Positions 30,274-39,144 of a stretch of DNA of 64,000 nt are shown piece after piece. Source of the stretch: Vallitaleaceae bacterium 9-2. GTDB lineage: Bacteria > Bacillota > Clostridia > Lachnospirales > Vallitaleaceae. Within the stretch, counting starts at the first letter, position 1. Each line of letters begins with the position of its first letter. The notes beneath the pieces are model-generated. The model saw only the letters and a program-made list of their open reading frames with translations, searched no databases and was not told the DNA's origin. Position numbers and translations under genes: made by a program. Location of the stretch: positions 1,364,001-1,428,000 of the forward strand of contig CP121691.1 in the NCBI GenBank assembly GCA_038396585.1, written 5' to 3'.

Positions 30274-30321
30274 ACACTATATGTAGTGGTTAGTTCAAAA
30301 ATTAAACACTGCATGTAGTGT
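30274..30321 (+). promoter_or_regulatory. Tandem NrdR boxes
   Basis: ACACTATATGTAGTGG (30274-30289) and ACACTGCATGTAGTGT (30306-30321) both fit the NrdR box ACAnWATATnTWGTGT closely. Their spacing is 32 bp, three turns of the helix, the usual distance for NrdR pairs. They lie just upstream of the nrdD promoter, so NrdR with bound ATP/dATP would repress the operon. Confidence 0.9.
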
Positions 30322-30328
30322 TTTTGTG

Positions 30329-30357
30329 TTGACGTATAATATGTGGAATGGTATGAT
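30329..30357 (+). promoter_or_regulatory. nrdD-thyA-folA promoter
   Basis: TTGACG (30329-30334), a 17-base spacer and TATGAT (30352-30357), placed directly downstream of the second NrdR box. Confidence 0.7.
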
Positions 30358-30388: not shown

Positions 30389-32722
30389 ATGTTTGAGGTG
30401 TTAAAGCGAGATCAAAGTCTTGTGCCTTTTGAGATGGAAAAAATTAAAGAGGCGATTAAAAAGGCATTTGAAGCAACAGAAAAATTATATACAGAGGATA
30501 TACTTGATATACTCGTTTTGAGAGTTACGGCAGATTTTCAAAAAAAGATAAAGACTAATAAAATTGCTATTGAAGATGTCCAGGATAGTGTTGAGAGTGT
30601 TTTAGAGCAAACTGGATATACAGATGTTGCCAAAGCATATATTCTTTATCGAAAGCAAAGAGAAAAAATGCGTAACATGAAATCAACCATCTTAGATTAC
30701 AAAGAAATTGTTAACAGCTATGTAAATGAAGAAGATTGGCGAGTAAAAGAAAACTCGACAGTCACATATTCAGTTGGGGGATTGATTCTTCATAACTCAG
30801 GAGCAGTTACAGCAAATTATTGGTTAAGCGAAGTCTATGATGAAGAAATAGCAAAAGCACATAAAAACTGTGATTTACATATTCATGACTTATCGATGCT
30901 GACAGGTTATTGTGCCGGTTGGTCCTTAAAACAATTAATTGAAGAAGGACTTGGAGGCATTCCCGGAAAGATAACATCTGCCCCAGCATCACATCTATCT
31001 ACATTATGTAATCAAATGGTTAACTTTTTAGGGATTATGCAAAATGAATGGGCAGGAGCGCAAGCCTTTAGTTCATTTGATACGTACTTGGCACCTTTTG
31101 TAAAGAGTGATGATTTATCCTATAAAGAAGTTAAGCAATGCATTCAAAGCTTTGTATTTGGTGTTAATACCCCGAGCAGATGGGGGACTCAGTCGCCTTT
31201 TTCAAATATTACTTTGGATTGGAAAGTTCCGAGCGATTTGGCAAATTTACCTGCATTAGTTGGAGGGAAAGAACAAGATTTTTATTATCGTGACTGTCAA
31301 AAAGAAATGGATATGATTAATAAAGCATTTATAGAGATTATGATTGAAGGCGATGCAAATGGACGCGGATTCCAATATCCAATTCCTACATATTCCATTA
31401 CCAGCGAATTTGACTGGGAAGAGACAGAGAATAATCAGCTTCTTTTTGAAATGACGGCCAAATATGGAACCCCCTATTTTTCTAATTATGTCAATAGTGA
31501 TATGGAGCCTAGCGATATTCGAAGTATGTGTTGCCGCTTGCGACTGGATCTTCGCGAACTTCGTAAAAAACAAGGTGGATTCTTTGGTTCAGGTGAAAGC
31601 ACGGGATCGGTGGGGGTTGTGACAATCAATCTTCCATCAATTGCGTATCAAGCACAAAATGAAGCAGACTTTTTTAGCCGTTTAGGTCGAATGATGGATA
31701 TCGCTGCCCGTTCTTTGCATATAAAACGTACGGTTATATCAAAATTATTGGACGAAGGATTGTATCCATATACAAAACGTTATTTAGGAAAGTTTGATAA
31801 TCATTTTTCAACAATTGGGCTATTAGGTATGAATGAGGCGGGATTGAACGCTTCGTGGTTGAAAAAAGATCTTACACATCAAGACGTTCAAGCATTTGCA
31901 GTAGATGTCCTTGATTTTATGCGACATCGCCTGTCGGATTATCAAGAAAAGTATGGAGATTTATTTAATTTAGAAGCGACGCCGGCTGAATCGACAAGTT
32001 ATCGACTCGCAAAGCATGATAGAAAACGCTTTGAGGGTATTATTGCCTCTGGTGATAATGCGACACCTTACTATACCAATAGTACGAATTTGCCAGTAGG
32101 GTATACGACAGACATTTTTGATGCATTAGAGATTCAAGATGAATTACAGACGAAGTATACATCGGGAACAGTATTTCATACATTTTTAGGTGAAAAACTT
32201 CCGGATTGGAAAGCAGCGGCAAAGTTGGTAAAAACAATTGCCACGAATTATCGTTTGCCATATTATACGATTTCTCCAACATATTCCATCTGTAAAGAAC
32301 ATGGATATCTACATGGAGAGCAATATATGTGCCCACAATGTGGAAAAACAACAGAAGTATATTCAAGAATTACAGGATACTATCGTCCGGTACAACATTG
32401 GAATGAAGGAAAAAGTCAAGAATTTAAAGAACGCACGCCCTACGAGCCAATCAAAGACAAATCAAGAACAGAGATGGCAACAGCAACAGCGCATCCAAAA
32501 GTTCTTTTGTTTACAACAAAAACCTGCCCAAATTGTCATGTAGCTAAAGAGTATCTAAAAGAGCATGCATATGCAGTTATTGATGCAGAAGAAGAAAGTC
32601 ACTTAGCCACACAATACAATATTCGTTCAGCCCCAACATTGGTTGTTCACGGTGAAGCGGATATGGATCAAGTTAAATATTACACAGGCCTATCGGAGAT
32701 ACGCAACTATATATGTGAGTAA
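30389..32722 (+). CDS. nrdD: Anaerobic ribonucleoside-triphosphate reductase with C-terminal thioredoxin-like domain
   Basis: Start placed at ATG 30389 behind GAAAGGAGATTGAAT. The 777-residue protein has an N-terminal ATP-cone (about 1-95), the catalytic barrel, a zinc site CKEH with CPQC (residues about 640-656) and the glycyl-radical loop RITGYY (Gly663) followed by HWNEGK. Residues 702-777 form an extra glutaredoxin/thioredoxin-like domain (LLFTTKTCPNCHVAKEYL with CPNC 713-716, then APTLVVHG). It reduces NTPs to dNTPs without oxygen. NrdR boxes lie upstream. The activating enzyme NrdG is not next to it. Confidence 0.95.
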   Translation: MFEVLKRDQSLVPFEMEKIKEAIKKAFEATEKLYTEDILDILVLRVTADFQKKIKTNKIAIEDVQDSVESVLEQTGYTDVAKAYILYRKQREKMRNMKSTILDYKEIVNSYVNEEDWRVKENSTVTYSVGGLILHNSGAVTANYWLSEVYDEEIAKAHKNCDLHIHDLSMLTGYCAGWSLKQLIEEGLGGIPGKITSAPASHLSTLCNQMVNFLGIMQNEWAGAQAFSSFDTYLAPFVKSDDLSYKEVKQCIQSFVFGVNTPSRWGTQSPFSNITLDWKVPSDLANLPALVGGKEQDFYYRDCQKEMDMINKAFIEIMIEGDANGRGFQYPIPTYSITSEFDWEETENNQLLFEMTAKYGTPYFSNYVNSDMEPSDIRSMCCRLRLDLRELRKKQGGFFGSGESTGSVGVVTINLPSIAYQAQNEADFFSRLGRMMDIAARSLHIKRTVISKLLDEGLYPYTKRYLGKFDNHFSTIGLLGMNEAGLNASWLKKDLTHQDVQAFAVDVLDFMRHRLSDYQEKYGDLFNLEATPAESTSYRLAKHDRKRFEGIIASGDNATPYYTNSTNLPVGYTTDIFDALEIQDELQTKYTSGTVFHTFLGEKLPDWKAAAKLVKTIATNYRLPYYTISPTYSICKEHGYLHGEQYMCPQCGKTTEVYSRITGYYRPVQHWNEGKSQEFKERTPYEPIKDKSRTEMATATAHPKVLLFTTKTCPNCHVAKEYLKEHAYAVIDAEEESHLATQYNIRSAPTLVVHGEADMDQVKYYTGLSEIRNYICE

Positions 32723-32747: not shown

Positions 32748-33578
32748 ATGAGTTATGCAGATAATATTTTTATAAAGATGTGTCAAGAAATTATTGAGGA
32801 TGGATTTTCCTCAGAAGGATCTGTTGTTCGCCCGGTGTGGGATGATGGTGCTATGGCACATACGATTAAACGTTTTGGTGTAGTCAATCGCTACGACTTG
32901 AGTCAGGAGTTTCCAATTATGACGCTTCGACCGACAGCGTTTAAGAGTTGTATTGATGAAATTCTATGGATTTGGCAAAAAAAATCCAATAGTATTCATG
33001 AGTTAAATAGTAAAATCTGGAATGCTTGGGCAGATGATACAGGAAGTATCGGAAAAGCCTATGGATATCAATTAGGTGTGAAGCATCAATATGCAGAGGG
33101 AATGTTTGATCAGGTAGACCGGGTCTTATATGACCTAAAGAATAACCCATACAGTCGACGTATTATGACCAACATATATGTTCATCAAGACTTGCATGCG
33201 ATGAATTTATATCCTTGTGCTTATAGCATGACGTTTAATGTAACAGGCAATAAGTTGAACGCAATCTTAAACCAACGCTCTAACGATATATTGGTTGCAA
33301 ACAATTGGAATGTTGTTCAATATGCAGTCTTGGTACATATGATGGCTATGGTAAGTAATCTAGAAGTCGGTGAATTGGTTCACGTTATTGCAGATGCACA
33401 CATATATGATCGACATATTCCAATTGTCCAAGAAATGATTCAACGTCCGACGTATCCTGCACCGCAGTTTAGAATCAAGAGACAAGTGGATGATTTTTAC
33501 GACTTTAAAGTAGAGGATTTTGAATTAATCAATTATCAAAAAAATCCTCAAATAAAAAATATACCTGTTGCAACATAA
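32748..33578 (+). CDS. thyA: Thymidylate synthase
   Basis: Start placed at ATG 32748, with AAGGAGATTATA before it. The 276-residue protein is a ThyA-type enzyme: phosphate-binding Arg137/Arg138 in SRRIM, the nucleophile Cys157 in LYPCAYS, then LNQRSNDILVANNWNV and HIYDRHI. It methylates dUMP to dTMP with methylenetetrahydrofolate, yielding dihydrofolate. nrdD (25-base gap) and folA (10-base gap) make it the middle gene of a dNTP/folate operon. Confidence 0.95.
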   Translation: MSYADNIFIKMCQEIIEDGFSSEGSVVRPVWDDGAMAHTIKRFGVVNRYDLSQEFPIMTLRPTAFKSCIDEILWIWQKKSNSIHELNSKIWNAWADDTGSIGKAYGYQLGVKHQYAEGMFDQVDRVLYDLKNNPYSRRIMTNIYVHQDLHAMNLYPCAYSMTFNVTGNKLNAILNQRSNDILVANNWNVVQYAVLVHMMAMVSNLEVGELVHVIADAHIYDRHIPIVQEMIQRPTYPAPQFRIKRQVDDFYDFKVEDFELINYQKNPQIKNIPVAT

Positions 33579-33588
33579 GGAGAAACAG

Positions 33589-34098
33589 ATGAAGTTAATT
33601 GTAGCATGTGACAAAGAATATAGCATTGGCAAAGATGGGGAGCTGCTTACATATTTGCCTAAGGACCTAAAGCGCTTTAAAAGTATTACTATGGGAAATA
33701 TTATGATCATGGGGAGAAAAACCATTGATTCCCTTCCGGGAGGGCGGCTGTTGCCTCAGCGTGAAACATGGATATTAACCCGAGATACAAGCTATGTCAA
33801 AGAAGGGGCTCGAATCTTTCATTCAATAGAGAGCATACGAAGTTATACAAAGGAAAATCAGATAGATACATCTTCGATTTTTATTTGTGGCGGTAGTGAA
33901 ATTTACCAATTGTTTTTGCCGTATTGTACGGAAGCTTATATTACCCAGATAGAACATGTCTTTGACGCAGATGTTAAGATTCCAAATATTGGAAGTCTGC
34001 CAGGATGGTACTTGACATTTCGCTCAGATGCGCAGTGGCATCATGAGTTGGAATACTATTATCTAAATTATGAAAATAAAAGTTATACACAATTTTAA
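33589..34098 (+). CDS. folA: Dihydrofolate reductase
   Basis: Start placed at ATG 33589 because AAGGAGAAACAG precedes it; an in-frame TTG occurs in the thyA tail. The 169-residue protein has LIVACDKEYSIGKDGELL, LPKDLKRFKSIT with the substrate-binding acidic residue nearby, MIMGRKTIDSLPGGRLLP and IFICGGSEIY. It reduces the dihydrofolate that ThyA makes, so the operon couples dNTP synthesis, dTMP synthesis and cofactor recycling. Confidence 0.95.
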   Translation: MKLIVACDKEYSIGKDGELLTYLPKDLKRFKSITMGNIMIMGRKTIDSLPGGRLLPQRETWILTRDTSYVKEGARIFHSIESIRSYTKENQIDTSSIFICGGSEIYQLFLPYCTEAYITQIEHVFDADVKIPNIGSLPGWYLTFRSDAQWHHELEYYYLNYENKSYTQF

Positions 34099-34134
34099 AA
34101 ATGGATGCACATAAATAATTAGGTCTTTTCTTTT

Positions 34135-34189
34135 TTACAAACTCCTCTATAATAGTTGATAACGCAAGCATGAAGGGAGGAGTTTGTAA
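34135..34189 (+). promoter_or_regulatory. Promoter framed by a 13-bp inverted repeat covering the ribosome binding site
   Basis: TTACAAACTCCTC (34135-34147) and GAGGAGTTTGTAA (34177-34189) are perfect complements. The left arm is immediately followed by TATAAT (34148-34153), so the gene's own mRNA would start near 34160 and lack that arm. The right arm contains the ribosome binding site and reaches the first base of the putative ATT start. Read-through mRNA from folA would contain both arms and could hide the ribosome binding site. The -35 for this promoter is weak. Confidence 0.6.
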
Positions 34190-37100
34190 TTAAAGGAAGT
34201 GTTACGGTTTTTTTTAGTATAACGATTCTATGCATTATTACCTGTCTGGCAACAATGCTGGAATTAACCAAGGCGCGTATTATTGAGGTCGAGCTAAGCT
34301 CAAGCACCAATAATGCGGCACACAGTGTATTAAGTCAATTTGATCCGGTGCTATTTCACGAGTATGGTCTTCTAGCAGGGGAGGAAGGCAATCATATTGA
34401 TGAAATCATTCAATCAAGTCTTGATATAAGTTTCTTTCCATCACAATATCCCAAAAATGAATATGTAGTAGACTATCTTCTCTTTAATAAAAATCGAGAG
34501 AAGGCATCAACGTTTATGGAACCAAAGGCATTTTCTTATGATATAGAATATGCACCTTTCTTGGAGGCAGATTATGCTTATGCCAAGGAACAGATTCTTG
34601 AATATATGGGACCGCGTCAATTCTATCTCCTTGCAGAACCTTTTTTAGAAAAACTAAATCTATTAAGTGAAACATCTAAATCATCTGAGATTATTGAAGA
34701 AAAATCTGACCTGGTTTCTGAACTTGAGATGTTTAATTCGTATACAGAAAGATTGATGTTATATTTTGATGGAGTTGCGATTGGATCAGGAGGAAAATCA
34801 TATATAAAGTATGACGAACCTTATATACGCAAGCTAAGTGTGGATACGATATCCTATGATTTTTTCCCAAAAAGCTATCACGAAAAATATCGTCAAAATA
34901 CTATATTTGTTGAAGATGTTCTTGAAAATGCAATCACAGGCATTGAAAAGTCAGATACTCTTTTGAAAAAAATCGTTAAGAAAGACATTAAAGCTGAAGA
35001 TATTAAGCGAGGCTATATGGGGGAGATAATAAAGGATAAAAAGTTATTGGATTTAGTCGATCGTTTGGCAGAAATCGAAGAACAATATTTAGAGCCCTCA
35101 CATGAAGCATTAGAAGAAATACAAGCGATTAAGCAAACCCACGAAAAATCTTTGGCCATTATTCGTATGTACAGTTCAATGAGTCAAGCAACGCTGGGCA
35201 AAATTGAACGGTTTCAAAATCGTATCGACAGTGAAGAACAAGTTATTTCAGGGCTTGTTAAAAGCATTAACCAAGAGTTAGATGATCTAAAGACAGAAGT
35301 GGATGTACATAGTGTGAATTTAGAAGAAGTCAATAATTTAAAGCTCTTTGAAGAGAGGCTAACTAAAAATCTAGAAATACTCTCATCATGCGAACAAGAC
35401 ATTGAGCGTCTGATTGACTATACAGATGACTATGCTGCACGTAAGTACAATCAATTAAAAAAAGAAAAGCAATTATCCTCGACAACTGAAGATTACCTTG
35501 ATATGCATATGTATACTGAATTTTACAAGAATCGCTCAACGCTAGCTACTATGCAAATTGATGGAGTTGCGCGTAATGTATTAGAAAATATACAAGGCTA
35601 TACAACAGACTTATTTTTTGATTATCAAAATATGGATATACAAGCAGACCGTGAACAAGAGAAAAAATATAAAGACAAAGTAGAGGCCCTATCGGCCATA
35701 GATTTATTTGAAACAGTCAGCATACAAGGTGTAGAAGCGATTAATCCATACCTTACGATTGATCAGACACTACTTCCATCCAATGCTATTGAATCAGAGA
35801 CAGATCAAAATGGAACATTTGATGCGAAAGAAATATTTAAGACATTGAGTGATCCATTGCTATTAGCAAAAAATACGCATGAAAAAATTTTGCTCAACGA
35901 ATATATTGTTGGAATGTTTTCTTCCGTAGTTAGTCAAGTGGATCCAAATGCAAAAAGTCTAAGTGGATTTGCGCTAGATGATCATTTGCTTGAATATGAA
36001 GTTGAATATATTCTGGGTGGTCATTTTAATGAACGAAAAAATCTTGAATTTGTTTTGGCGATACTGTTTGGCGTTCGTGTGTTATGCAATACAGTTCACC
36101 TTGCAATTGATAGTGCTAAACGTGAGACGATTTTAAGTATTGCAAATGCCATTGCAGGATGGTGGACTGGAGGCGTTGGAGGTGCAATACTAGCAGTTGT
36201 CATTGGATTGTGCTGGGCAATGGTTGAGGCTATTGTTGATGTGTTTATGTTGACCTCAGGAGAAAAAGTGCCTTTTATCAAAACCGCTTCAACGTGGTAT
36301 AGTTCTCTCGATGGAAATTGGGAAGAGCTTTTTGATGCATCGGTTCGTTATGTTCAAAATAAAGCGTTGATGTATATTAAAGATACGGGAGAGTTGACCA
36401 AAGGGGCTGTTAGTGCGGTGAAAAATATACTTGATGATGCAGTAGAGCAAAATGTAGGAGGAAATGGATTTGATCGACGTCGTGTTGAAGAAACCATGGA
36501 AAGTGTGTTTACCTCAGTAGCAGAAGAGATGAATATTCAAATAGACGTGGCAAATCGGGCTATTGATAATGAAATTGAAGAGCAGTTGGATAGTTATTTG
36601 ATTCAAGCAACTCAAGAGACTGAGGGGAATGAAGATAATCAAAACCAAGAAGAGCTGGATCCAGATGTACTCAGCCTTATTGGTGCAATGAAGTCAACGG
36701 TTGATTCACATGAGTTAGATAGTTCATCAAGTTTGTCAGAAAAAGTGGCGGTTCGAGAGACCATTTTAAATACATATGCAGGACAAATACAACAATTAAA
36801 AGAGGCTACAGCTCAAAAGCAAAAAGAAATATATGAAAATGCCTCAAACTATGCCGCGGAAGAATTAAAAGACTACATTGATGATAATATAAAGGAAGGC
36901 TGCGACATCACGACCGACCTATTGACCAAAAAAGCGGATGAAATAAAAAAAGATATGAAGAAAAACATTACAGAAGAAAGCAAAAAGAAATTTGGTGTAG
37001 AAAACCTTATTCCGTCACTAGACTATACCGACTATTTACGTTTGTTTTTATTTTGTAGTCTACAAGAAGAGGAAGTAAAAATGGCACGAGTGATGGATCT

Positions 37101-37278
37101 TATACAAATGAACATACAAAAAAAATATAATGATTATGATAGATCCTTTGAAAATTATTTTAATGGAATTAACATTACAACAACACTCAAAGTGCCGGTA
37201 ACTCAGCAGATGCCTGTTCATGAGCGAATAAAAAATAAATTATGGGAGTATCAGATTGAAGAGAGTGCAAGATATTGA
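34189..37278 (+). CDS. DUF5702-type Tad pseudopilin-associated protein, AUU start
   Basis: I place the start at ATT 34189: it follows GGGAGGAG by six bases, no ATG/GTG/TTG is in frame, and starting at ATG 34255 would cut the N-terminal helix. With this start the N terminus is (M)KGSVTVFFSITILCIITCLA, the type III-signal-like anchor of Tad pseudopilin-associated DUF5702 proteins, followed by ELTKARIIEVELSSST and FDPVLFHEYGLLA. The 1,029-residue protein is rich in coiled coil (residues about 270-420) and has a second hydrophobic stretch (about 640-690, GGVGGAILAVVIGLCWAMVE). It probably lies outside the membrane. No Tad motor genes are in the window. Confidence 0.75.
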   Translation: MKGSVTVFFSITILCIITCLATMLELTKARIIEVELSSSTNNAAHSVLSQFDPVLFHEYGLLAGEEGNHIDEIIQSSLDISFFPSQYPKNEYVVDYLLFNKNREKASTFMEPKAFSYDIEYAPFLEADYAYAKEQILEYMGPRQFYLLAEPFLEKLNLLSETSKSSEIIEEKSDLVSELEMFNSYTERLMLYFDGVAIGSGGKSYIKYDEPYIRKLSVDTISYDFFPKSYHEKYRQNTIFVEDVLENAITGIEKSDTLLKKIVKKDIKAEDIKRGYMGEIIKDKKLLDLVDRLAEIEEQYLEPSHEALEEIQAIKQTHEKSLAIIRMYSSMSQATLGKIERFQNRIDSEEQVISGLVKSINQELDDLKTEVDVHSVNLEEVNNLKLFEERLTKNLEILSSCEQDIERLIDYTDDYAARKYNQLKKEKQLSSTTEDYLDMHMYTEFYKNRSTLATMQIDGVARNVLENIQGYTTDLFFDYQNMDIQADREQEKKYKDKVEALSAIDLFETVSIQGVEAINPYLTIDQTLLPSNAIESETDQNGTFDAKEIFKTLSDPLLLAKNTHEKILLNEYIVGMFSSVVSQVDPNAKSLSGFALDDHLLEYEVEYILGGHFNERKNLEFVLAILFGVRVLCNTVHLAIDSAKRETILSIANAIAGWWTGGVGGAILAVVIGLCWAMVEAIVDVFMLTSGEKVPFIKTASTWYSSLDGNWEELFDASVRYVQNKALMYIKDTGELTKGAVSAVKNILDDAVEQNVGGNGFDRRRVEETMESVFTSVAEEMNIQIDVANRAIDNEIEEQLDSYLIQATQETEGNEDNQNQEELDPDVLSLIGAMKSTVDSHELDSSSSLSEKVAVRETILNTYAGQIQQLKEATAQKQKEIYENASNYAAEELKDYIDDNIKEGCDITTDLLTKKADEIKKDMKKNITEESKKKFGVENLIPSLDYTDYLRLFLFCSLQEEEVKMARVMDLIQMNIQKKYNDYDRSFENYFNGINITTTLKVPVTQQMPVHERIKNKLWEYQIEESARY

Positions 37279-38341
37279 AGGAAGTGTGAGTGTTGAATCG
37301 GCATTAATTATTCCTGTTATCATGGCCGTGTTTATATTTTTTATGAGTATGATGCAAATTATGTATACACATGGGAAAGTGCAAATTGCTCTAAATGAAG
37401 TCTGCAAAGATTTGACATATGATAGCTATTTTTTTCAGGAGTTAGGAATTATTGAAGTTAACCAGGCGCTATATTCTAAAGGGCTTGAGCAATCAATAAC
37501 AGTAGAAGACTTGCGAGTACTTAAACAAGAGCTAACAGAAGTTATCCCAGAAGTAGCAAGCGATTTAAACAATTTGAAGTTTTCCAATATATCGGAAGAA
37601 ATTTCTGTGGAAAATATTGATACCATTTTACAGGAAAAATCAGATGTCACGTCAGTTCTTGTTAAATTATATGAAAGTATGAGTAAACTATCTCAGAGCG
37701 CTGGAACTGAAGGGGGATACTTCATCAACACAATGCTATTACGTGTGTATATAAAGGAAAAACTAAAATTGTACACCCAAGAGATTGATGCGGATTATAC
37801 ACTTGTGCATGCATCAGGATTTCTAGAAGACAATAGTGGGCAAATCATACTCAGCACAGAGTATCAAGTACCGATTTTATTTAAGCGTCACACAATTCGA
37901 CTAAAAAACGGCGGTTATTTCCATGCGTTTATCGGTGCGGGGAAATTTAGCGCATCCTACAATCAAGTCATTAAAAAAAGTCAATATGGAAAAACGGTAG
38001 AAGGAGATGATGATACAGAGGATGAAGATCAAGACGGATTTGCAAAGACGGTATATGTAACTGAATATGGAGCAAAGTATCATAAGAATCAAAAGTGTTT
38101 TCATATCAAGGTCAATGTAAATCGGATGCGATTAAAACAAGTAACAGGGAAAAGTCCATGCGAACATTGTGGTGACGGTGGCCTAGATTTAGAAGATAGC
38201 GCTATTGTGTATACAACGAAAAACAGTCGAGTTTTTCATCTCGATAAAAAGTGCCACTCAATATATCATCATATATCAAAATACTCTGAGAAGGAAGCGA
38301 TTAATAGTGGGTATGGTCCTTGTAAATCATGTTCAAAATAA
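37256..38341 (+). CDS. TadE-like pseudopilin with two C-terminal CxxC modules
   Basis: TTG 37256 follows GGGAG by eight bases and overlaps the previous stop. The N terminus is EGSVSVESALIIPVIM, the TadE/TadG signature (G-S, then V-E-x-A-L, P), and a hydrophobic helix. Residues about 40-260 form the ectodomain. Two repeated C-terminal modules, each V-Y-x-T ... H-x4-C ... C-x-x-C (His276, Cys281, Cys302, Cys305; His328, Cys333, Cys356, Cys359), look like the small metal-binding ribbons found in clostridial surface proteins. This is a fusion of a pseudopilin-like anchor and metal-ribbon-like modules. Confidence 0.75.
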   Translation: MKRVQDIEGSVSVESALIIPVIMAVFIFFMSMMQIMYTHGKVQIALNEVCKDLTYDSYFFQELGIIEVNQALYSKGLEQSITVEDLRVLKQELTEVIPEVASDLNNLKFSNISEEISVENIDTILQEKSDVTSVLVKLYESMSKLSQSAGTEGGYFINTMLLRVYIKEKLKLYTQEIDADYTLVHASGFLEDNSGQIILSTEYQVPILFKRHTIRLKNGGYFHAFIGAGKFSASYNQVIKKSQYGKTVEGDDDTEDEDQDGFAKTVYVTEYGAKYHKNQKCFHIKVNVNRMRLKQVTGKSPCEHCGDGGLDLEDSAIVYTTKNSRVFHLDKKCHSIYHHISKYSEKEAINSGYGPCKSCSK

Positions 38342-38355
38342 ATAAGGAGATGGAT

Positions 38356-38709
38356 ATGCTCAAGAATACAGAGGGAAGTGTACTAATCGAAGCGGCAATT
38401 ATTATGCCACTATGCATTATATGTATCTTAACGCTTATAGGAATGACGATAAGATACCACTATACAATAACTTATGACTTGTATTCAGATATCAACGAAT
38501 ATTATGGCGGGGCAGACTTGTCTGCAACAAAAGAAGTTGAAAATTTTTACAAGCAAGAGATTACAAGCCATTCAAAGGAGAAAAATCGTATAAAAATTAT
38601 CAAACAAATAAAATTTATTGATGATGTTTCAGATCAAATTCAAATATCAAGTACAATAAAAGAAAAGTATGATAAGAACATAAAAAAAATACAACTTATA
38701 TTAGAATAG
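38356..38709 (+). CDS. Short TadE-like pseudopilin
   Basis: Start placed at ATG 38356, with AAGGAG six bases before; two earlier ATGs in frame lie on or before that ribosome binding site. The 117-residue product begins LKNTEGSVLIEAAIIMPLC, the TadE-type E-G-S-x-x-x-E-A-x-x-x-x-P motif and a hydrophobic helix, then a short, basic ectodomain. It is the third pseudopilin-like gene in a row and overlaps none of the motor genes known from Tad loci. Confidence 0.75.
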   Translation: MLKNTEGSVLIEAAIIMPLCIICILTLIGMTIRYHYTITYDLYSDINEYYGGADLSATKEVENFYKQEITSHSKEKNRIKIIKQIKFIDDVSDQIQISSTIKEKYDKNIKKIQLILE

Positions 38710-38739
38710 TATTAGAAAGAGATAAAACTTTGATATTAT

Positions 38740-38798
38740 CCTTTACGCTCGAATTGAGACATCGTATAATTAGGGTATACAAGACAAAAGCGTAAAGG
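38740..38798 (+). promoter_or_regulatory. Promoter framed by a 10-bp inverted repeat reaching the ribosome binding site
   Basis: CCTTTACGCT (38740-38749) and AGCGTAAAGG (38789-38798) are perfect complements. The left arm contains the -35 TTTACG (38742-38747), followed by a 17-base spacer and TATAAT (38765-38770). The right arm covers the ribosome binding site AAAGGAG of the gene at 38,809. As at 34,135, only read-through mRNA would carry both arms. Confidence 0.6.
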
Positions 38799-38808
38799 AG
38801 CGTATCAT

Positions 38809-39144
38809 ATGGGTAAAATAAAAATAGAAGGACAATCAATTTTTGGATTTATCGTTTTGTTGGTTGGAATTGTCATGTTGCTTAATGGATTAGATATAAT
38901 TCCAGCGGATATAAGTGTGGCTAAATACTGGCCGATAATTTTAATTGTATTAGGGATTGTTAAAATAATTAACTACGATGAATCATCATTTTGGGGTGGC
39001 ATTATATTAATCATAGGAATATATTTTTTGCTTTCAAATTTTGATGTGGCTTTTGTAAAACACATTCGTTTCGGATCTATTTTCTGGCCCTTTGTTGTTA
39101 TACTTATTGGACTATCACTAGTCTTTCCTAAAAAACATAACTAA
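38809..39144 (+). CDS. LiaI-LiaF-like transmembrane protein
   Basis: ATG 38809 behind AAAGGAGCGTATCAT. The 111-residue protein has four membrane helices in two repeats (SIFGFIVLLVGIVMLLNGL, YWPIILIVLGIVKII; WGGIILIIGIYFLL, FWPFVVILIGLSLVF), which match the LiaF/LiaI-like transmembrane region (PF18917-like). Full LiaF proteins sense envelope stress and carry an extra domain that is missing here. The promoter at 38,740 serves it. Confidence 0.75.
   Translation: MGKIKIEGQSIFGFIVLLVGIVMLLNGLDIIPADISVAKYWPIILIVLGIVKIINYDESSFWGGIILIIGIYFLLSNFDVAFVKHIRFGSIFWPFVVILIGLSLVFPKKHN

Follow-up and report, generated by a model that had tools for sequence, protein, structure and literature searches.

We report that the gene for a DUF5702 membrane or secreted protein in Vallitaleaceae bacterium 9-2 is preceded by a perfect 13-bp inverted repeat, the left arm of which lies in the spacer of the gene's predicted promoter while the right arm covers the gene's own Shine-Dalgarno (SD) sequence. 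The repeat is located in the window, i.e. the whole stretch of 64,000 nucleotides that was analysed, and sequence comparison together with RNA folding suggests that the promoter spacer probably acts as a translational insulator against read-through, which is the best explanation of the arrangement. In this model DUF5702 would be transcribed from a sigma-A-type promoter of its own (-35 at 34126, -10 at 34148), whose 16-bp spacer would not be part of the resulting RNA and could thus hold a sequence complementary to the ribosome-binding site. The gene's own RNA (start at ≈34160) would leave GGAGG free and be translated from AUU at 34189, whereas read-through RNA from nrdD-thyA-folA would carry the spacer, form a 13-bp stem over the SD and start codon, lengthened by an imperfect outer part, and stay untranslated. 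Read-through presumably occurs, and its translation would thereby be silenced.

The repeat and the promoter consist of the following features (positions refer to the window):

34126-34131, + strand: predicted -35 box TTTTCT (TTTTCA in the sister species), best promoter fit
34135-34147, + strand: left (anti-Shine-Dalgarno) arm TTACAAACTCCTC, inside the promoter spacer, 12/13 identical in the sister species
34148-34153, + strand: -10 box TATAAT, conserved as TATAATAGTT; conservation drops directly behind it
34177-34189, + strand: right arm GAGGAGTTTGTAA, covering the SD and the first base of the start codon, 13/13 identical in the sister species

The two arms, TTACAAACTCCTC and GAGGAGTTTGTAA, are 100% complementary and separated by 29 nt, and the RNA stem continues outward, imperfectly, to about 34126/34199. 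This agrees with the sequence-only reading of the locus, which had described a perfect 13-bp repeat with TATAAT placed directly after the left arm: the 3' end of the arm abuts TATAAT, which constitutes the first loop bases. The right arm includes the GAGGAG of a strong SD stretch, GGGAGGAG (34175-34182), and its last base is 34189. That the arm holds GAGGAG and reaches the start codon thus stands, with the correction that the start codon is a non-canonical ATT at 34189.

An energy comparison proposed along with that reading gave -37.5 kcal/mol for RNA 34100-34260 (z -2.6; 3 of 200 shuffles were equally good) vs -15.4 kcal/mol for RNA 34160-34260 (z +0.9). The predicted cost of opening the SD and start codon is 22.2 kcal/mol for a transcript from 34100 vs 6.5 kcal/mol, an ordinary value, for transcripts from 34159-34161, which bears out the claim that the SD would be hidden in the long RNA and free in the gene's own RNA. 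With the left arm barred from pairing the opening cost was 7.8, and with its letters permuted 9.5 ± 1.7 kcal/mol; the stem is predicted only where the RNA starts upstream of 34135. In the sister species (G001, UBA2432) the corresponding values are 18.8 (long RNA) and 5.9 kcal/mol (own start). There is no T-run behind the stem, so the hairpin is neither a terminator nor an antisense terminator. Scanning with the Rfam 15 covariance models resulted in no match at the gathering threshold, only chance-level ones with E up to 10, and assigned the hairpin to no known riboswitch, thermometer or leader family.

The promoter hexamers resemble the sigma-A type, with a perfect -10 box; the -35 box matches at 3/6 positions here (TTTTCT) and 4/6 in the sister species (TTTTCA), i.e. 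a promoter fit of 9/12 and 10/12, respectively, and the spacer is 16 bp in both. The gene's own transcript is predicted to start at about 34159-34161, and since the left arm lies wholly inside the -35/-10 spacer in both species this RNA should lack the left arm. In several further genera of this family, DUF5702 is preceded at a comparable position by TAGACA or TGGACA-17-TATAAT; such a promoter was found at most 90 nt from the DUF5702 start in 5 of 17 relatives and farther upstream in one more. Its presence in other genera supports the view that DUF5702 is normally served by a promoter of its own. Before the left arm, a block at 34105-34131 (GATGCACATAAATA-TTAGG-CTTTTC) is strongly conserved in the sister species beyond the -35 box and is perhaps an activator site. 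Moreover, a promoter-like TTGCCA-16-TAGAAT on the minus strand (34252-34225), the -10 of which is weaker (CAAAAT) in the sister species, would produce antisense RNA spanning the hairpin, comparable to that of IS10.

The genes from which read-through RNA would originate lie directly upstream:

30274-30320, + strand: two NrdR-box-like repeats, ACACTATATGTAGTG (30274-30288) and ACACTGCATGTAGTG (30306-30320), conserved in the sister species
30389-32722, + strand: nrdD, anaerobic ribonucleotide reductase, first gene of the operon (Pfam NRDD, E 1e-190; ATP-cone)
32748-33578, + strand: thyA, thymidylate synthase (PF00303, E 3.5e-87)
33589-34098, + strand: folA, dihydrofolate reductase (PF00186), its stop 90 nt before the ATT start

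The three tightly spaced genes nrdD-thyA-folA look like a single dNTP operon. The repeats ahead of nrdD, 32 bp apart, resemble the consensus of the NrdR box, and they are followed by a promoter, TTGACG (30329-30334)-17-TATGAT (30352-30357), with a good fit; judged by these motifs the segment 30274-30357, which is conserved in the sister species, likely marks where the operon reading into the inverted repeat begins. A terminator scan between folA and the DUF5702 gene found none, here or in the sister species, and read-through into the DUF5702 gene would therefore be expected. The folA stop and the outer stem are 26 nt apart, a distance at which ribosomes completing folA should have little effect on the stem. 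folA is located upstream of DUF5702 in several other genera as well, and some of the gaps there hold terminator-like hairpins instead.

The DUF5702 gene and the open reading frames around its start and end are:

34170-34193, + strand: 7-codon frame ATG..TAA (MKGGVCN), starting in the loop, its stop overlapping the ATT start, without an SD of its own
34189-37278, + strand: DUF5702 membrane/secreted protein gene, 1029 codons, ATT start (PF18960, E 9e-42)
37256-38709, + strand: two TadE-like genes (37256-38341 and 38329-38709) with a weak TadE match (E 7e-4, below the cut-off)

The match to the DUF5702 profile (PF18960) scores 143 bits vs a cut-off of 26, and relatives of the protein have a conserved N-terminal segment, KGS[VI]TVF. 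The reading frame has a stop at 34171 and no ATG, GTG or TTG before 34255, and the first canonical in-frame start, ATG at 34255, would remove the conserved segment. ATT at 34189 was taken as the start because no ATG, GTG or TTG keeps the KGS[VI]TVF N-terminus; it sits 8 nt after GGAGG, and the sister species has the same ATT start while the proteins are 62-63% identical. We infer that translation initiates at the AUU of 34189. In Staphylococcus, conserved AUU/AUA starts with a strong SD give ≈1/10 of the expression from AUG, and the S. aureus cvfC1 and ccpN genes are like the DUF5702 gene in having an AUU start with a strong SD that is kept between species (PMC13009471). They are unrelated genes for which no hairpin logic is described, unlike the present case, where AUU initiation is only predicted. 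The MKGGVCN frame is kept in the sister species and may be due to chance. Its stop at the start codon raised the idea of a programmed +1 frameshift from ATG at 34170, which was set aside in favour of AUU initiation because this ATG lacks an SD and re-pairing of tRNA-Asn on AUU should be poor. Judged by the overlapping reading frames, the TadE-like genes apparently share the transcription unit of DUF5702. DUF5702 was not mentioned by name in the literature searched.

Comparison of the window with the sister species provides insight into how the element has been kept. Third codon positions are 45% (folA), 54% (thyA) and 48% (DUF5702) identical, and the 90-nt gap between folA and DUF5702 is 82% identical with 25/26 arm bases retained. 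As had been anticipated, the promoter and both arms are kept, the left arm at 12 of its 13 positions and the right arm at all of them; the ATT start is kept as well. The compensatory changes in both arms that were also anticipated did not materialise: there is none between the two species, and the single arm change, A34137 to T in the sister species, breaks one outer pair and leaves an uninterrupted run of 10 pairs. Other promoter regions of the two species, spacers included, are conserved equally well, and 39% of noncoding 13-mers are identical at 12/13 or more positions; conservation of the left arm alone is therefore no evidence for pairing. Since promoter conservation alone would keep the left arm, the insulator function is something we infer.

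The element is present in the same species (G000, G096 and UBA4039) and in the sister species, and in no other of 22 family genomes, i.e. in one genus and two species only. No SD-covering arm longer than 8 was found in the 17 other DUF5702 upstream regions. The expectation that the same repeat precedes the DUF5702 genes of relatives consequently holds within the genus (two species) and fails for the 17 other relatives; for a third member of the genus the contig ends 41 nt upstream of its DUF5702 gene.

Five Markov replicates of 464 kb together contained a single case of perfect arms of at least 13 within 70 bp. In 464 kb of the real genome there are 4 such repeats with a loop of at least 15 (≈1 per 115 kb), and repeats of this kind are hence not very rare in themselves. 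Among 399,984 genomic 16-mers there is not one that matches the ribosome site of DUF5702 by at least 13 bases, and the frequencies of 16-mers matching this start region are 1.25e-5 (at least 12 bases) and 9e-5 (at least 10 bases). The earlier statement that the repeat is unlikely by chance thus has to be divided: repeats of this size are in themselves not very rare, and it does hold for the match to the ribosome site, which is not due to chance.

Start-site scans covered 1.66 Mb of the genome, in stretches. The arm scan used canonical starts only (1257), the DUF5702 gene with its ATT start being outside this table; one of the 1257 other start sites has an arm of at least 13, which is A+T-rich and lies over the start codon rather than the SD. 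SD-covering arms of at least 9 were found at 10 of these starts vs 5-16 in three controls, i.e. without genome-wide excess, and arms of 9-10 near the starts are no commoner than in the controls. The cost of opening the start region with 90 nt of upstream sequence is the highest for DUF5702 among 1258 starts (median 5.3, 99.9th percentile 19.3 kcal/mol). Among the next in this ranking are two copies of an integrase-core transposase from the same genome (17-18 kcal/mol), assigned to the IS21 istA type by inspection, as expected of elements guarding against read-through. In a GTPase-like gene of 723 aa (L153, minus strand, gene start 3212 in reverse-complement coordinates; opening cost 20 kcal/mol) the SD is covered by a very strong hairpin, ACCTCCTTGTTGGATA..TATCCAATAAGGAGGT. 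Searching the whole genome for a CTCC..TATAAT..GGAG pattern gave 9 places vs 5 in controls and no second clear case, and further copies of the arm did not exceed chance. Given its restriction to one genus and the lack of genome-wide excess, the element is a local invention and not a general device of the genome.

Four other explanations were weighed against the insulator. The main start might lie upstream of the left arm, in which case the hairpin would always be present, TATAAT would be mere loop sequence, and opening of the leader would depend on temperature, on a protein or sRNA, or on a ribosome that enters at the loop ATG. Such a switch would account for a stem that covers the SD and start exactly, for the conserved block 34105-34131 upstream of the arm and for the kept 7-codon frame, which begins within the loop and terminates at the start codon. 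The loop in the sister species can in addition form a further 8-bp stem, one C-G pair of which is G-C in the window, but three pairs of this possible stem are broken there. No promoter-like site with a good -35 is present between 34060 and 34126, there is no Rfam match, and conservation is high up to the -10 box and then drops, as at the other promoters of the region; we therefore regard a switchable leader as unlikely. Slightly less likely still is that the complementarity arose by chance in an ordinary promoter spacer and is kept by promoter conservation, without effect. The general conservation of spacers in this species pair and the genome-wide frequency of arms of 9-10, no higher than in controls, are what it would predict. 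Against it, a 13-base match has a frequency of <2.5e-6 per 16-mer (≈1e-5 for at least 12), so that roughly 0.1 such matches or fewer would be expected even if a few thousand genes and several positions are allowed for. In addition, no other start among the 1258 is as costly to open.

Two explanations act at the level of DNA. The arms could be half-sites of a regulator around the -10 box, since they flank this box and the transcript start with their centres 42 bp apart, i.e. near a whole number (four) of helical turns. We consider an operator of this kind very unlikely: SD and start codon together account for the right arm in full, the spacing is 43 bp in the sister species owing to a 1-nt insertion, one arm base is changed on one side only, and the genome has no second copy of the arm. 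Inverted repeats that flank a promoter element also bring to mind a promoter flipped by a recombinase, which is scarcely credible here given that the 29 bp between the arms is too short for known invertases, the -35 box lies outside the repeats, no recombinase is adjacent, and the orientation is the same in G000, G096, UBA4039 and the sister species.

The insulator proposed here resembles systems known from mobile elements and phages. The transposase mRNAs of IS10 (Tn10) and IS50 (Tn5) are reportedly protected from external promoters, and the DUF5702 gene is like these in that the outer arm lies upstream of the own transcript start (the left arm runs up to the -10 box, with the start predicted at ≈34160), that the inner arm lies over the ribosome site, and that read-through RNA alone is predicted to fold shut over the SD and start (22.2 vs 6.5 kcal/mol; 18.8 vs 5.9 in the sister species). 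It differs from IS10 and IS50 in being a chromosomal gene with an AUU start and the arm in the promoter spacer. Neither a transposase gene nor mobile-element ends were found: the locus is flanked by nrdD-thyA-folA and the TadE-like genes, in an order identical in the sister species. The suggestion that an IS10-type logic operates at a chromosomal gene agrees with these predictions. In phage T4 the early read-through RNA of the lysozyme gene e is said to hide the ribosome site while the late RNA is translated. Here, too, the own RNA would start inside the hairpin, as the late RNA of gene e does, and therefore lack the full stem; the late promoter is phage-specific, whereas that of DUF5702 is sigma-A-like with a spacer that constitutes the arm. 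The occluding stem of IS200 is also present in the element's own mRNA, unlike that of DUF5702, which is predicted to lie outside the own RNA and is not accompanied by a separate terminator stem. In the IS200 leader, one stem-loop is reported to terminate impinging transcripts and another to occlude the ribosome binding site, lowering translation (PMC3196728), and the stem at DUF5702 is predicted to do the latter. The literature searched for bacterial chromosomal examples yielded no direct match. New here would be that the logic serves a chromosomal gene, that a promoter spacer supplies the blocking arm and that both are combined with a conserved AUU start.

Overall, the reading as protection from read-through is partly supported: the fold, the conservation and the lack of a terminator agree with it, and the expected compensatory change is lacking. 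Also against the insulator are the poor -35 box, the lack of genome-wide enrichment and the restriction to one genus. As a broader and more tentative idea, which we hold to be possible, promoter spacers may act as untranscribed anti-Shine-Dalgarno arms that insulate a chromosomal gene, in this case a Tad-like surface gene kept low by AUU and set apart from a dNTP-synthesis operon, with a weaker copy (38739-38799) at the other end of the cluster. If true, insulation from upstream transcription would not require a terminator and could be a property of chromosomal genes as well as of transposons and phages. RNA coverage alone could then not define operon membership, since a co-transcribed gene may go untranslated from that RNA. 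Genomes can be screened at little cost for spacers complementary to the SD, and the pattern leads to a clear prediction for bench work. With respect to annotation, gene finders would misplace the conserved ATT start by 22 codons and lose the N-terminal membrane segment.

Finally, a second inverted repeat, 38739-38749/38789-38799, has arms of 11 bp and a loop of 39 nt that contains TATAAT. Its right arm, AGCGTAAAGGA, is the SD of a LiaF-like gene at 38809, which represents the end of the DUF5702 gene cluster. By arm length alone it is within chance, and it is the weaker case of the design. The opening cost is about 12-13 vs 6 kcal/mol (in the run on the window, the region was offset by one base), and in the sister species 10 of the 11 RNA pairs persist, two of them as G-U.
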